NCBI GenBank assembly: GCA_016219275.1
Contig: JACRBM010000058.1
Span: 124,001-188,000 of the forward strand
Direction: 5' to 3'
DNA: 64,000 nucleotides
Origin: Chloroflexota bacterium
Lineage (GTDB): Bacteria; Chloroflexota; Anaerolineae; UBA4142
Part shown: piece by piece, positions 11,089-53,020 of the stretch
Layout: each line of letters begins with the position of its first letter
How positions within the stretch are numbered: position 1 is the first letter of the stretch
The notes under the pieces: model-generated
Database searches by the model: none
Told to the model about the DNA's origin: nothing
Seen by the model: the letters and a program-made list of their open reading frames with translations, nothing else
Made by a program: the position numbers and the translations under genes

Positions 11089-12777
11089 TTATCGCGCGAC
11101 GAACTTGACCGCGTCGAAGACGATGCTCGTTGAAAGGAACGGTTCGTACGTCACATCGGAGAGCGAGACGTACTCGCCGCCGCGCGCGTGGAAATAGTAG
11201 GTGCCGAGCGAGACCCACTGGTTCGGGTAGAGCGCCTGAGCAACGCGGCGCATTTGGTACGCGCCGCCGTGCTGCACCCAGTAGCGCGCGTTGCGCGTGC
11301 TGGCAATGCCGGCGGGAATGTAAACGAACGTTTCGTAATAGCCCGCGGCGGGCAGCGTCGGATACCAGCGCGCCCAGTTGTAGTACGGCGCGGCGTACGT
11401 ATTGTTCTCGGTCCAGTACGCGAAACTGCCATAACTGTTCGGCGCTTGATGCCATCCGCTGGCGGAGCCGCCCTTGCTAAACCCAGGATTGCGTACATCC
11501 ACGATCACTTCACCGCCGGGTGGCGGGGGCGGCGGAGGATTGACGCCGGAGGCAATCGTCACGCGCAGCATCGAGCCGCCATCGCGTTGATAGTACTCGA
11601 CGCGCCAATCGTGCGCGCCCGCGTTGAGGTACACGGTGACCGCGTACGTCGTCGGCGCTTGATCGCGCCACTGGTCAATCAGGATGTTATTGTCCACCCA
11701 CACGCGCACCCCATCGTCCGACGTCGCAGCGACAGTGTAGTATCCATTGGCGTGCGTGTTACGGCGCGATGTAAATCGCGCAGACCAATTGGTGCCTGGG
11801 ATGCCCAAGCCGGGCGATTGTCCGTTCCAATTAAAGTTGAGGTTCGTATCATCGCGGAACAAGGTCGGCGCGCCGGAGAGATTCGGATTGTTGAAATACT
11901 CGCCGTGCCAGGTTTCGATGTCGGCAATCGTCGTCCAGGTGAGCACGGCGAGCGCCGCGCCGCCGCGTTGATAATACTCCATCTTGACCGCGTGATTGCC
12001 TTCGGTCAGCGCGATGTCGCCCGACCAAGCGGTAGGACCTTGATCAATCCAGCGATCAATGATGAGTTGATTGTCTACCCACAAACGCGCGCCGTCGTCG
12101 GTCGTCGTCGTGAAACGATAGTTGCCGGTGGCAAAGTACTGCGTGCGCGTCCACCGCACCGAAAAGTTGACGCCGGGAATGCCGCCGCCCGGACCCGCGG
12201 TGCCAAAGTTGAAATTGATCGCGGAATCGTTGCGGATGAAGACCGGCGACCCGGCGAGATCGGGATTGTTATAGTACTCGCCGCGCCAATCGGGATAACT
12301 CGCGGACGCGATTTGCAAACGCGCTTCGGCGGTACCGTCGGCTTGATAGTACTCCATCTTGACGAGATGAAAGCCCATCGCGAGATTGACGGTCGCGTTG
12401 TGCGCGGCGGTCGTTTGGTCGCGCCACTGGTCAATCACGAGCGTATCGTCCACGAACAGGCGCACACCGTCGTCGGTGATCGTCGTCAACGTCCAATTCC
12501 CGGCGCGGTCGAAATAGACCCAGCGAATCCAACGAACGGAAAAGTTTTGTCCAGGAATGCCGCCGCCCGGTCCGCCGCTGCCCCACACGAAATTGATGTT
12601 CGGGTCATCACGCGTAAAGACGGGATTGCCTTGCAGATTGCGATTCGAATAATAGAAACCGGTCCACGCCGTCGCGGTCTGCGCGTTGGGCGACGCGGCA
12701 ACGGATGTCGTACTCACGATTCCGGCAACGAGCAATGCCAGGACGATCAAAACGATGTGTAACGTCGTTCGCTTCAT
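11089..12777 (-). CDS. Secreted protein with three PA14 domains and a golvesin-type C-terminal domain
   Basis: 562 residues. Residues 1-30 are a Sec signal peptide (hydrophobic LHIVLIVLALLVAGIV, then ASPNAQ). Three PA14 repeats of about 125 residues follow (roughly 36-155, 160-285, 288-415), each with a WxGxYYxNxxLxGxPVFxRxD opening, NFxW.G.GPG.GIPG..FSVRW and TDDGxRxWVD blocks. A proline-rich linker (seven Pro) leads to a 130-residue domain resembling the golvesin/xanthan-lyase C-terminal carbohydrate-binding module. It is likely an extracellular glycan-binding or adhesion protein without a visible enzyme domain. The ribosome-binding site GGGGAGG lies just upstream. Confidence 0.82.
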   Translation of the reverse strand: MKRTTLHIVLIVLALLVAGIVSTTSVAASPNAQTATAWTGFYYSNRNLQGNPVFTRDDPNINFVWGSGGPGGGIPGQNFSVRWIRWVYFDRAGNWTLTTITDDGVRLFVDDTLVIDQWRDQTTAAHNATVNLAMGFHLVKMEYYQADGTAEARLQIASASYPDWRGEYYNNPDLAGSPVFIRNDSAINFNFGTAGPGGGIPGVNFSVRWTRTQYFATGNYRFTTTTDDGARLWVDNQLIIDRWIDQGPTAWSGDIALTEGNHAVKMEYYQRGGAALAVLTWTTIADIETWHGEYFNNPNLSGAPTLFRDDTNLNFNWNGQSPGLGIPGTNWSARFTSRRNTHANGYYTVAATSDDGVRVWVDNNILIDQWRDQAPTTYAVTVYLNAGAHDWRVEYYQRDGGSMLRVTIASGVNPPPPPPPGGEVIVDVRNPGFSKGGSASGWHQAPNSYGSFAYWTENNTYAAPYYNWARWYPTLPAAGYYETFVYIPAGIASTRNARYWVQHGGAYQMRRVAQALYPNQWVSLGTYYFHARGGEYVSLSDVTYEPFLSTSIVFDAVKFVAR

Positions 12778-13102: not shown

Positions 13103-14344
13103 ATGCCTCCCAAATTCTTCATCACGCACTCGTGGAAAGACATTGATTTTGCGCGCAAGTTGTGCGACGATTTGCGCGCAAATGGGCTGGACGGATTTTT
13201 CGACGCGTACTCGATCAAGCCGGGCGATTTGATTTCAAAAGAAATTAGCGATGGCTTGGAAAAGTGCGACGTTTACGTACCGATTCTTTCGCACGCCGCG
13301 CTGAAATCGCCGTGGTGCGATGAAGAGATTCACGCCGCACTTACACTGGGAAAATTTCCCGGACGCAGTGGACGCCCGCGCATTATTCCGATTTTGGTTG
13401 AAGATTGCCAGGAGGCGATGCCAATTTTATTGCGGACGCGGCTCTACATCATGTTTGACGGATGTTACGATGACGCGTTCCGCGAATTGCTGATCAAAGG
13501 ATTTGGCGTTGCACTTCAAACACCTACGCCCAAATCACAGCCGCCGGAAGTCTTGGCGCTACCCTCTCCGAAAGTTGTATCACTACTTCGGAGAATTATG
13601 AGCCCAGCGCATTCCATCATCCACCCAAAGGCCAAGAAAGAAATGATCCTGGTTCCCGCCGGTGAATTTGTGATGGGCGACGATAAAGGAGGCAAAGACG
13701 AAAAGCCGTCACACAAGGTTTTCCTGAACGCGTTCTATATTTCACGCTACCCAGTGACAAACGCTGAATACAAAAAATTTGTGGACGCCACGAAACACAG
13801 AATCCCACGTCATTGGCAGAACGAAGAGATTCCAACGGGCAACGAAAATGATCCGGTTGTCTATGTGAGTTGGGAAGACGCGGTGGGATATTGCAAATGG
13901 GCTGGCGTGCGCTTGCCAACCGAAGCGGAATGGGAAAAAGCCGCGAGCTGGGATGACGCGAAAAAATTGAAACGAGTTTATCCTTGGGGTGATGAGTTTG
14001 ACGCGGATAAGTGCAACACATCCGAATCGAAAATTGGCGACACAACTCCAGTTGGCAAGTACTCACCTCAGGGTGACAGCGAGTACGGTGTGGGCGATAT
14101 GGCAGGGAATGTTTGGGAATGGTGCGCGGATTGGTACGATGGAAACTATTACAAGAATTCTCCGGCACAAAATCCGCAAGGACCGGATTCTAGATCGCAA
14201 CGTGTCCTTCGTGGCGGGTCATGGAACCTCAGTCGAGATTTCGCGCGTTGTGCGATCCGCGACCACGTCAATCCTCATAACCGTAGCTACGTTATCGGGT
14301 TTCGCGTTGCCGAGTCTTTCCCTGGGGTTGGTTCTGTCTCCTGA
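13103..14344 (+). CDS. TIR domain - formylglycine-generating-enzyme-like (SUMF1) protein with a putative DGR variable region
   Basis: 413 residues. Residues 1-130 are a TIR domain: KFFITHSWKD at the N-terminus, then SHAALKSPWCDEEI, with the Glu expected for a TIR NADase or signalling site. Residues about 180-405 are an FGE/SUMF1 C-type-lectin-like fold (MILVPAGEFVMGDD, YPVTNAEYKKF, VSWEDAVGYCKWAG, RLPTEAEWEKAA, GDMAGNVWEW, RGGSWN...GFRVAE). The closing stretch between RGGSWN and GFRVA is unusual: almost every non-conserved codon ends in C or T (14228-14293), as expected if AAY codons had been mutagenised at adenines by a diversity-generating retroelement. A perfect GC-rich hairpin follows 51 bp after the stop. 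ATG 13103 is preferred over an upstream in-frame GTG at 13079 because the promoter lies between them. Confidence 0.85.
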   Translation: MPPKFFITHSWKDIDFARKLCDDLRANGLDGFFDAYSIKPGDLISKEISDGLEKCDVYVPILSHAALKSPWCDEEIHAALTLGKFPGRSGRPRIIPILVEDCQEAMPILLRTRLYIMFDGCYDDAFRELLIKGFGVALQTPTPKSQPPEVLALPSPKVVSLLRRIMSPAHSIIHPKAKKEMILVPAGEFVMGDDKGGKDEKPSHKVFLNAFYISRYPVTNAEYKKFVDATKHRIPRHWQNEEIPTGNENDPVVYVSWEDAVGYCKWAGVRLPTEAEWEKAASWDDAKKLKRVYPWGDEFDADKCNTSESKIGDTTPVGKYSPQGDSEYGVGDMAGNVWEWCADWYDGNYYKNSPAQNPQGPDSRSQRVLRGGSWNLSRDFARCAIRDHVNPHNRSYVIGFRVAESFPGVGSVS

Positions 14345-14395
14345 TTTCTGACCGCTTCGCGTGTTTTCTGTTCTGCTGTTTTTCTTGGGGGGAGT

Positions 14396-14426
14396 CCAGA
14401 GGGGGGCGTAGTTTGCCCCCCTCTGG
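14396..14426. repeat. Perfect GC-rich hairpin downstream of the FGE variable region
   Basis: Twelve-base arms CCAGAGGGGGGC / GCCCCCCTCTGG with a seven-base loop (GTAGTTT), 51 bases after the TIR-FGE stop. DGR variable regions are known to be followed by a DNA hairpin that aids retrohoming; a simple terminator is the alternative, although no T-run follows. Confidence 0.8.
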
Positions 14427-14544: not shown

Positions 14545-14781
14545 ATGGCTAGCACAATCAGCCGCAAACGGCGGCGCGGCGTTGCGGATATGACGGTGGA
14601 TGAATTGCAGACATTGATCGAGCGCGTGGTTGATCGCAAAATGTCCGAGTGGGCAAGCGACCCGCGTATTGCACGTCGCCGCGCGGCAATTGCCGCAAAT
14701 GCCATCACTACACGCGCCGAGTATCGCGCGGGCAAGGTGCGGCGTGGAACTGCTAAAGAGTTACTTGCCGAAGTCGAATGA
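14545..14781 (+). CDS. Putative antitoxin of a RelE/YafQ-type pair
   Basis: 78 residues, basic at both ends (SRKRRRG; RRGTAKELLAEVE) with a helical middle (MTVDELQTLIERVVDRKM). The ATG is chosen because it follows the promoter and the GGGAGG site; a longer upstream frame would cross the promoter. It overlaps the next gene by four bases (ATGA). Small proteins with an MTVDEL...LI..VVD.KL core are common antitoxin partners of RelE-type toxins. It would bind and neutralise the toxin and probably repress its own promoter. The assignment rests mostly on the partner. Confidence 0.68.
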   Translation: MASTISRKRRRGVADMTVDELQTLIERVVDRKMSEWASDPRIARRRAAIAANAITTRAEYRAGKVRRGTAKELLAEVE

Positions 14782-15062
14782 GAAACCTGGTCTGGGGTTC
14801 GTCATTCAAACGCGCGCTCAAGCGAACTTTGCGCCGCCATCCCAAGTGGCGCGAGCGGATTGCGGATGTGCTGGATGACCTCGCGGCTGACGCGTTCACC
14901 CCACAACTCGAAACGCACAAACTGAAAGGTGAACTGGCTGGCTTGTGGGCTTGTACCGTTGAGTACGATTGCCGTATTGTGTTCGAGTTTGTCAAGCATC
15001 TACAAATCGGCGAAGAAGAAATCTTGTTGATTGATATTGGTACGCACGATCAGGTTTATTGA
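14778..15062 (+). CDS. RelE/YafQ-family mRNA interferase toxin
   Basis: 94 residues with the RelE-fold layout: helix-rich N-terminus (SSFKRALKRTLRRHPKWRERI), then LETHKLKGELAGLWACTVEYDCRIVFEF and ILLIDIGTHDQVY. The KLKGELAGLWACxVxYDxRI(V/I) block and the final IGTHDxVY are characteristic of this toxin family, where His and Arg residues support ribosome-dependent mRNA cleavage. It overlaps its antitoxin by four bases. A strong terminator-like palindrome follows at 15075. Length and motifs look intact. Confidence 0.85.
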   Translation: MRNLVWGSSFKRALKRTLRRHPKWRERIADVLDDLAADAFTPQLETHKLKGELAGLWACTVEYDCRIVFEFVKHLQIGEEEILLIDIGTHDQVY

Positions 15063-50200: not shown

Positions 50201-50940
50201 GGCGCGCGATGATCGAATGGGTTGCGATTGCGACGGCGCTGGCGGCTGCCGCGCAAACGGTCGGCGGCGAGTTGGTGAAAGAAGGTTTGAAATCGTCGCT
50301 CAAGCCGGCGAGCGAACAGTTCAACGCGAATTTCTTGCGCGGCTATAAAGCCAAGCAACACGAAAACAATTTGCGCCGCGCGCTCGAAGCGACCGAGACC
50401 GCGTTCCGCGCGACGCCGAGCTTGACCACCGCGCAAGCGGACGCGGTGCTGACGCGCGTCACGCAACTCGCGCGTAACCCGCGATTGCAAAAGCAAACGC
50501 TCGCGCTGCTCCTCACGTTTCGACGATCAAAGCCCCTCGCGCATCCCCGACGATTTCTTGCGCGCGTTCGGTCTCACCGACGAACTGCGTCCCGCGCTTG
50601 CCGCGTTTCTCTACGAACTCCGTTCGCATTTCGCGCAGATCAAACAGTACGAGCCGTTGATGCAATTCGCGCTTGATTTACGCGCACAGAAAAAACGCGA
50701 TGAAACGAACGCGTGGCTCGCGGCGATGGCCGGCGCGCAAGGCATTCTCGCGACGAGCGACGACGCGCAAGCGTTGAAGGATTACCTCGCGCACGTCCGC
50801 GAAAAACGTACCTACCTCTCGTTCCTCTTTGTTCGCCCGCGCTCGCGTGAAGCGACGACCGAAGCCGAACTCGAAGCGGTGTTCGTGCCGCTTCAAGTGC
50901 AAGACCCGGAACAAGAAGAAAAAATGCGGCGCAAATCGTC

Positions 50941-50973
50941 AGACCTGTCAGGTCTCAAAGACCTGACAGGTCT
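50941..50973. repeat. Perfect palindrome AGACCTGTCAGGTCT/AGACCTGACAGGTCT inside coding sequence
   Basis: Fifteen-base arms with a CAA loop, translated as SDLSGLKDLTGL in the NACHT-FGE frame. GACCTG family. Confidence 0.9.
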
Positions 50974-52283
50974 CGAGCGCGAGAAACCGTCAACGATCAA
51001 CGACATTCTGCCGCGCTACGATTGCCTCTTGCTCAAAGGCGCGCCCGGTTCCGGCAAGACGACACTGTTGCGTCACCTTGCGCTCGCGTTTGCGAATGGC
51101 GACGCGCGCGAAAAACTCGCGTGGCAGGGCGAGCCGCTTTTGCCGATTCTCGTGCCGCTCCGCAACTTTGGCGCGTACCTTGACGCGCATCGCAAAGAAT
51201 TTCCCGACCCCGCGCCCATGTCTCTGCTGACCTACATCCAGCAACACTTTGGGCAGAACGCGCTCGCACAACTCTCCGCGTTTTTCCGCGACCGCGAGGG
51301 CGGCAAGGACGCGTCGGACACCTGGGCGCGGCGGTTCCTCGTCGTCGCGCATCAACGCAGCGGCTTGTACGTCGAGGGTGCGCCGAACCTCTACAACTTT
51401 TCGCACTCGAACTTTCGAGAGTATCTTGCCGCGACCGAACTCGTCAAGGAACTCGATAGCGATCTCGTCCGCATCGTGTTGGAACACGTGGGCGACGCGT
51501 GGTGGGAAGAAACGATTTTGCTCGCGATGGCGTTGAAGGAACTGGGCGACCCGCGCCGCAAGTTGGTGATGGACGAATTGTTGGCGCGCGGACATTTATT
51601 GATGGCGGGCAAGTGCGCGGTGGATATGAGCGACCGCCTGCCTGCGCCATTGCGCCAGGAGATCACGGATAAATTGCTCGCGCAGATGCAGGCGTTGCGC
51701 GCGCCGATCAAAACCCGCGCGTCCGCCGGCGAAGCGCTCGACGCGCTTGGCTGGCTTCCCCCCGACCTCGACACGTTCGTCCACATTCCTGCTGGTGAAA
51801 CGACATTCAACGACGAGCGCGTGCGCGTGCCGGAATTTTTCGTCGCCAAATATCCGGTTACCAATTACCAATTCCAAAAATTTATTGACGCCGGCGGCTA
51901 CGAAAACGAAACCTACTGGCGCGATCAACGCGGCGTGGACGAAAAGGGGCGCGAACAAAACTTGAAAGACGAAGCGTGGAAGTGGTTGCAAGAACGCGGC
52001 GGTGTGGAACGCCGACCGTTTTACTGGGACAATCCGCGCTTTCACCGCGCCGGCTATCCGGTGATTGGCGTGACATGGTACGAGGCGAGCGCGTACTGCA
52101 AGTGGCTGACGGAGCAAATCGCGAATGGTGGATTGCTGATGGCAGATAGTCAGTGGCAATCGGTCAACCCGCTTTTGCTTTCTGCTATTCGCAATCAGCC
52201 ATCTGCGCTTGTTTTCCGTTTGCCCACCGAACTGGAGTGGGTGCGTGCAGCGGGTGGCGACGCGAATAATCGGTATCCCTGGC

Positions 52284-52336
52284 AATCCCCAACCCCACCC
52301 CAGCCCTCCCCTTTGCAAGGGGAGGGTGAGGGAGGG
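52284..52336. repeat. CCCTCCCC-family palindrome inside coding sequence
   Basis: CCAACCCCACCCCAGCCCTCCCC paired with GGGGAGGGTGAGGGAGGGG, translated as a Pro/Gly-rich insert (PTPPQPSPLQGEGEGG) in the FGE domain. Confidence 0.88.
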
Positions 52337-52635
52337 GTGATTGCGCGCGCGAATGTGAAGGAGAGCGACCTGGGTGGCACAACGCCGGTCGCAATGTACC
52401 CCGACGGCGCGCGCGTAACGGAAGGAGGTGAACGCATATTTGATCTAGCCGGAAATGTCTGGGAGTGGACAAGCAACACTTTTGAAAAATCGTACCGAGG
52501 CGCGTGGATGCGCGGTGGATCGTGGGCTTGGAACGCAGACCCCGCTTCCGTCTCGTCGCGCATCGACCTCAACCGCCACTCCGACTACCACAACTACGGT
52601 TTGCGCGTGTTCGCCCAGTAATTTTCCTGAAGCAC

Positions 52636-52668
52636 TTGACAACTGACAACTGACAACTGACAACTGAT
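52636..52668. repeat. CAACTGA tandem heptamers
   Basis: Four consecutive ACAACTG-type units just after the NACHT-FGE stop. Related units occur in glpA and at 55229. Confidence 0.8.
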
Positions 52669-52684
52669 CTCACCCCATCCCCGT

Positions 52685-52729
52685 CCCTTCCCCTGCTCCT
52701 GACGATTTTTGTCAGGAGCAGGGGAAGGG
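52685..52729. repeat. Perfect 19-bp-arm hairpin downstream of the NACHT-FGE variable region
   Basis: Arms CCCTTCCCCTGCTCCTGAC (52685-52703) and its complement (52711-52729), loop GATTTTT, 63 bases after the FGE stop. It could be a C-rich-family repeat, a terminator, or the hairpin that follows DGR variable regions. Confidence 0.8.
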
Positions 52730-52748
52730 GGGACAAGGGTATTGTCAT

Positions 52749-52830
52749 TGTCATTTCGACGAGCGGTTTGTGCGAGGAGAAATCTCCGTTCACACAGGGA
52801 CAAGATTTCTCGCTCTGCTCGAAATGACAG
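52749..52830. repeat. TGTCATTTCGA...TCGAAATGACA inverted repeat
   Basis: Third clear member of the ATTTCGA family, with internal GAGAAATCTC and AGATTTCTCGC. It lies between the NACHT-FGE gene and the reverse transcriptase fragment. Confidence 0.85.
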
Positions 52831-52873
52831 GTAGGTGCGACTTTGACAAAACCCTAAAAGGGGACACGAGACG

Positions 52874-53020
52874 ATGAAAACCTACAAACATCTCTACGAA
52901 CAAATCGCGACGTTCGAAAATCTGCTGCGCGCGTTCGACAAGGCGAAACGGCACAAGCGGATGAAACGACACGTCGCGGAATTCGAGCTGAACCTCGAAC
53001 ACAACCTGCTCGAACTGGAA
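52874..53020 (+). pseudogene. N-terminal fragment (49 codons) of a DGR-type reverse transcriptase
   Basis: Reads MKTYKHLYEQIATFENLLRA, then FDKAKRHKRMKRHVAEFELNLEHNLLELE. The order LYExIxxFENLLxAxxKAxxxKRxxxxVxxFExNLExNLLxLxxEL is the N-terminal signature of diversity-generating-retroelement and related reverse transcriptases, just ahead of the first polymerase motifs. All later parts (including the YADD-type catalytic box) are missing. A perfect palindrome (53021-53047) sits at the break, so an element insertion with deletion is likely. The frame continues by chance into the nucleotidyltransferase gene, which has its own promoter. The position, right after an FGE-type variable protein, is where a DGR RT is expected. 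Confidence 0.72.

Follow-up and report, generated by a model that had tools for sequence, protein, structure and literature searches.

A TIR-FGE gene in a Chloroflexota genome is very probably a remote target of a DGR on another contig

The window analyzed here, a 64,000-nt stretch of a Chloroflexota draft genome, contains a gene for a TIR-FGE protein whose 3′ end resembles the variable repeat (VR) of a diversity-generating retroelement (DGR), and no template repeat lies inside the window. This raises the question of where the template of this gene resides, and whether the gene is still being rewritten from it. The features that bear on this question are as follows (all on the plus strand of the window).

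13103..14344, +: TIR-FGE variable protein gene, 413 aa; the reading frame is open from TTG 13079
13115..13492, +: TIR domain with WCDEE (residues 71–75), whose last Glu aligns with that of other bacterial TIR proteins
13637..14311, +: FGE-sulfatase / C-type-lectin domain, a high-confidence prediction (pLDDT block means mostly 92–98)
14210..14324, +: DGR VR; template at C45:55996–56110 in the same genome
14228..14293, +: variable codons 376–397, changed at their first and second positions but never at the third
14294..14324, +: conserved VR 3′ end (IMH), differing from the template end (IMH*) at TR positions 105, 108 and 113 in 4/4 VRs
14325..14395, +: spacer from VR to hairpin, rich in TTCTG/TTTCTG units
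14396..14426, +: GC-rich hairpin with arms of 12 bp and the loop GTAGTTT, probably a DGR target-site element

A domain search with the TIR-FGE protein gave TIR_2 at residues 5–130 (E 7.7e-27) and FGE-sulfatase at residues 179–403 (E 3e-63), and the FGE-sulfatase family fold is present. The gene (open reading frame 13079/13103–14344), its VR and the hairpin lie where the original prediction had located them. The aligned Glu of WCDEE is presumably the catalytic one. The variable stretch lies between RGGSW at residue 370 and GFRVA at residue 399. We take the catalytic cysteine pair of FGE to occupy W+2 and W+7 in the C-terminal segment; by these positions, the corresponding residues 376 and 381 are Leu and Ala, and the sole Cys of the VR is residue 383. 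AlphaFold2 modelled the FGE domain with high confidence and the linker (115–151) with low confidence, and Foldseek with this model retrieved FGE structures together with the T. denticola variable protein 2y3c. Given the FGE/C-type-lectin fold and the match to TvpA, it is plausible that the VR forms a tunable binding face of a TIR effector, as originally proposed. PADLOC returned weak, partial TIR matches only for the window, and a search of a plasmid collection gave distant matches only.

A search of the window's own draft assembly (G000; 6.16 Mb, 107 contigs, 97.9% complete, 2.4% contamination) with window positions 14190–14345 as query returned four near repeats: C58:120747–120890, C45:53964–54107, C45:59037–59181 and C45:55996–56107. 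The last of these, taken as C45:55996–56110, matches the window VR with E 5.8e-27, lies just downstream of a DGR RT gene and an Avd gene, and carries no FGE gene end. The window VR differs from it at 21 positions, 15 of them template adenines (hypergeometric p = 1.4e-6); for the other three VRs, 15/20, 13/16 and 16/20 mismatches fall at A. IMH and IMH* differ by the same three changes in all four VRs. Judged by its sequence, C45:55996–56110 is the template of the window VR; a repeat with adenines at the variable positions, which the original prediction expected elsewhere in the genome, is thereby located beside an RT and an Avd gene.

The RT domain (C45:54554–55201) scores over the RVT_1 cut-off and contains the motifs IGNLTSQ, which we take to be the DGR form of that motif, and YVDD. 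The Avd gene matches NF033474 (E 8.8e-26, above the cut-off) and Pfam bAvd, and both genes are open reading frames. The best RVT_1 score in the genome belongs to contig C80, which was set aside because it has no Avd or FGE match. RT and TR lie on a different contig from the window VR; if both are on one molecule, template and TIR-FGE gene are at least 118 kb apart. A shared locus is not a required DGR feature, because DGRs with remote targets have been described. That contig C45 is a binning contaminant, so that template and target do not belong to one cell, is very improbable: the assembly is a draft with some contamination, but C45 has a tetranucleotide correlation of 0.974 with the window (close relatives also correlate well), its GC content is 0.572 vs. 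0.578, and a related genome has trans pairs of its own.

The template matched four VRs in all: the window TIR-FGE gene, two targets local to the C45 template, namely a NACHT-FGE gene (C45a) and a NACHT-HEAT-FGE gene (C45b), and C58:120756. The latter belongs to a TatA-DUF4062-FGE gene (C58:119331–120959) about 3 kb before the window, which is broken by one in-frame TAA inside the FGE domain. A single template thus served four sensors with different front ends, the tip of a TIR effector coming from the same source as those of STAND-type sensors; this is a clear new case of a single template supplying different alarm proteins. Three more DGRs with their own templates are present in the genome (C67, C68 and C96), with 15–19 of 17–20 mismatches at A. 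Another FGE protein in the window (50558–52621) matches none of the templates found. After this P-loop/FGE protein comes a DGR-type RT remnant of 37 residues (52874–52984), and the locus as a whole, window 50558–52984, is probably a decayed DGR.

Examination of the mismatches outside adenines shows that those in the body of the repeat recur at template positions 22, 26, 46 and 71, at each of which several letters occur among the VRs, as would be expected of a former template A. Four of the six non-A mismatches of the window VR would fall at A in a template that carried A at these positions, and the remaining two are IMH/IMH* marks. The templates of two relatives of the same family, G004:C253 and G005:C270, do have A at 22, 26, 46 and 71, and G005:C270 adjoins an RT and an Avd that are 71% and 66% identical. 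Against a template with the adenines restored, the window VR has 18 mismatches, 16 of which are at A; the other two, 108 and 113, are IMH/IMH* marks common to all four VRs. The letters of the current template are found at the four sites in C45a (4/4) and largely in C45b (3/4). By these letters, the VRs of the window and of C58:120756 were last fully written from an older template. Since it matches that version, the window VR was written in trans, and its last complete rewriting predates the four changes. The original prediction, with no template in the window, had placed diversification in trans or in the past; the template proved to be on another contig, and the VR fits its older version better.

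A second, unassembled template with A at the four positions would also account for the four sites at which the present C45 template departs from what the window VR needs. We consider it rather unlikely, as the 97.9% complete assembly, searched as a whole, gave no second template besides that of C45, and the VRs C45a and C45b record this one template in transition from the old letters to the new. A more serious alternative, to which we give somewhat under an even chance, is that the window VR is a fossil, rewritten in trans by the C45 DGR in the past and no longer, the gene now encoding a fixed TIR-FGE protein. Its letters at TR 22, 26, 46 and 71 fit the older template, in contrast to those of C45a and C45b, and the other C58 target carries an in-frame stop. 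However, the IMH and hairpin of the window are intact, with perfect hairpin arms, the frames of the C45 RT and Avd are open, and few rewriting events may have occurred since the template change.

Relative to the adenine-restored template, the window VR has 6, 8 and 0 differences at codon positions 1, 2 and 3 across 14228–14293. In the original prediction's list of variable codons, the bracketed CGA, which had been set apart, is also variable (CAA in the old template, CTA in the current one). As a control, five stretches of equal length from non-DGR FGE genes of the same genome showed 41–54 differences spread over all three codon positions, with about 40–50% at A. Normal divergence of FGE C-termini, with no DGR involved, might be considered because many proteins have a variable loop at this C-terminus; the template match, the A-bias and the paralogue control refute it, and we give it practically no weight.

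All four changes in the C45 template hit adenines, of which there are about 34 in its 115 bases; the probability of this by chance is <1%, which is no more than suggestive. Single sites similar to the lost adenines of the C45 template are also seen in the templates of C96 and G012:C66. We offer as a speculation, itself doubtful, that the template erodes at adenines as if the DGR occasionally rewrote its own template, so that VRs would keep a dated record of earlier templates and the range of target specificities would drift; combined with the supply of NACHT, TIR and DUF4062 sensors from a single template, the result would be a shared, evolving repertoire for several alarm outputs. In a literature search on how DGR templates evolve, the only related finding was template variants in T. 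denticola.

The hairpin arms (14396–14407 and 14415–14426) are perfect and begin 51 bp past the stop codon (14342–14344), in agreement with the original description of arms and distance, and the single-strand DNA fold z-score of the hairpin is −4.45. The hairpin follows all four VRs of the C45 template, although it is imperfect at C58up. The motif GGGGGGCN{3,9}GCCCCCC occurs four times in the 6.16 Mb genome (control count zero), and all four occurrences lie beside VRs, namely after C45a, C45b, the window VR and the C67 VR. Because the motif occurs in this genome only after DGR VRs, the earlier reading of the hairpin as a DGR element is strengthened, and it is probably a target-site element. 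Of 16 VRs from this genome and its relatives, almost every one is followed by a GC-rich hairpin, in most cases beginning 45–71 bases past the VR; the downstream copy in G008 is not of this type. None of the templates examined in the same genomes is followed by a hairpin of this sequence type, and none was found after non-DGR FGE genes. Across 20 genomes of the order, an automatic pattern placed 13 of the 17 hairpin loci examined 24–59 bases past the stop of an FGE C-terminus; two of the remaining loci follow similar C-termini by eye, and two others have no assignment.

The position of the hairpin past a stop codon, and the presence of AAAATTTT after several of its copies, would also suit a mere transcription terminator lying outside the DGR. 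This is unlikely, given that a terminator scan does not call the window hairpin, that the exact motif occurs in this genome nowhere but beside VRs and that non-DGR FGE genes do not carry it. The spacer of TTCTG/TTTCTG units follows nearly all VRs seen in this family and is absent after templates. Palindromic repeats of the AGACCTGTCAGGTCT type were also observed near several DGR targets of the family, downstream of VRs (L045:8870–9020, L153, L213 and L214).

Examination of related genomes shows that the arrangement of a TIR-FGE gene with a remote template recurs in one of them. Contig C107 of G012 encodes a 420-aa TIR-FGE protein (TIR 73% and FGE 63% identical) matched by a template on another contig, C66, which also serves a local gene, with 18/19 mismatches at A. 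A second TIR-FGE gene of G012, on C102, is matched by the C116 template, with 22/23 mismatches at A. In G011 and G008, TIR-FGE genes adjoin their own template; for the VR of the TIR-FGE gene on G011:C23, no full template was found in the G011 draft genome. With TIR-FGE genes matched by both local and other-contig templates in relatives, DGRs thus target TIR-FGE repeatedly here, both in cis and in trans. The genus of the window's genome comprises this one genome; at the level of the family, Avd-like matches occur in 13/14 genomes and exceed the cut-off in 8. A TIR-FGE gene with a VR-type hairpin is also present on G006:C194, in a draft genome without any Avd match, and is possibly an orphan target.

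The template, RT, Avd, A-specific mismatches and shared IMH and hairpin make the window TIR-FGE gene very probably a remote (trans) target of the C45 DGR. Homing through an RNA template, mutagenic cDNA and replacement of the VR is established for DGRs. The C45 element would make RNA from its template, which the RT with Avd would copy with random bases at adenines, and the cDNA would replace the VR of any gene with a matching IMH and GC-rich hairpin, the window TIR-FGE gene included. The residues that have been rewritten lie within the C-terminal part of the FGE/C-type-lectin domain, a fold varied in other DGR proteins. In its likely role as an intracellular sensor, the protein would bind a phage or other foreign ligand with its lectin-fold tip and so activate the TIR domain, which would then deplete NAD+ or produce a signal, stopping the infected cell. 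TIR-FGE would then be the sensor and effector of a cell-suicide type response, its ligand, activation and NADase activity being putative.

Published work already describes DGR lectin domains joined to TIR-like and NACHT domains, as well as remote targets and activity in trans (PMC7517822, PMC10907252, PMC7159879, PMC4891356), and the window gene is a new case of a known kind of system; its hairpin is of a variant form and its VR records an older template. Like the cyanobacterial remote DGR proteins (PMC7517822), it has a C-terminal C-type-lectin variable domain, which in that group joins various N-terminal domains including TIR-like ones, and lies far from the RT with template identity at its 3′ end; unlike them, it comes from another lineage, the template of the TIR target is pinned down, and a genome-specific hairpin marks the targets. 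The putative antigen sensors of Thiohalocapsa PB-PSB1 (PMC10907252) likewise involve several DGRs per genome, STAND/NACHT and TIR on diversified lectin domains, and targets best explained by trans activity. Their trans VRs agree with the template at every non-A site, and population diversity was seen, whereas the window VR matches an older template and is known from one assembly. The TvpA DGR of Treponema denticola (PDB 2y3c; PMC4891356) shares the FGE-type variable fold and, in the consulted parts of that paper, remote targets fed by one template and one remote VR that fits another template version; TIR or NACHT effectors are not described in those parts.

As in the BPP-1 DGR with its hairpin/cruciform (PMC3240598), a GC-rich inverted repeat lies downstream of the VR. 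Published phage DGR hairpins have 7–10 bp stems, a 4-nt GRNA loop and a distance of 4–34 bp from the VR (PMC3240598), whereas those described here have 8–12 bp stems, non-GRNA loops of 3–7 nt and mostly 45–71 bp to the VR, about 70 bp in the case of the window hairpin, and therefore represent a variant form. Contig-based surveys miss remote DGR targets (PMC8144416), and a hairpin unique to them within a genome offers a simple DNA tag for finding them. The pairing of C45 with TIR-FGE lends support to the view that bacteria diversify sensors of the immune type before they are needed.

Two further observations concern the surroundings of the TIR-FGE gene. Just downstream of the hairpin (window 14548–15062), a small gene is followed by a YafQ/RelE-family toxin gene, likely a toxin-antitoxin pair. 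On the minus strand, window 11089–12777 encodes a 562-aa protein with internal repeats that, by sequence, seem to resemble PA14-type units.
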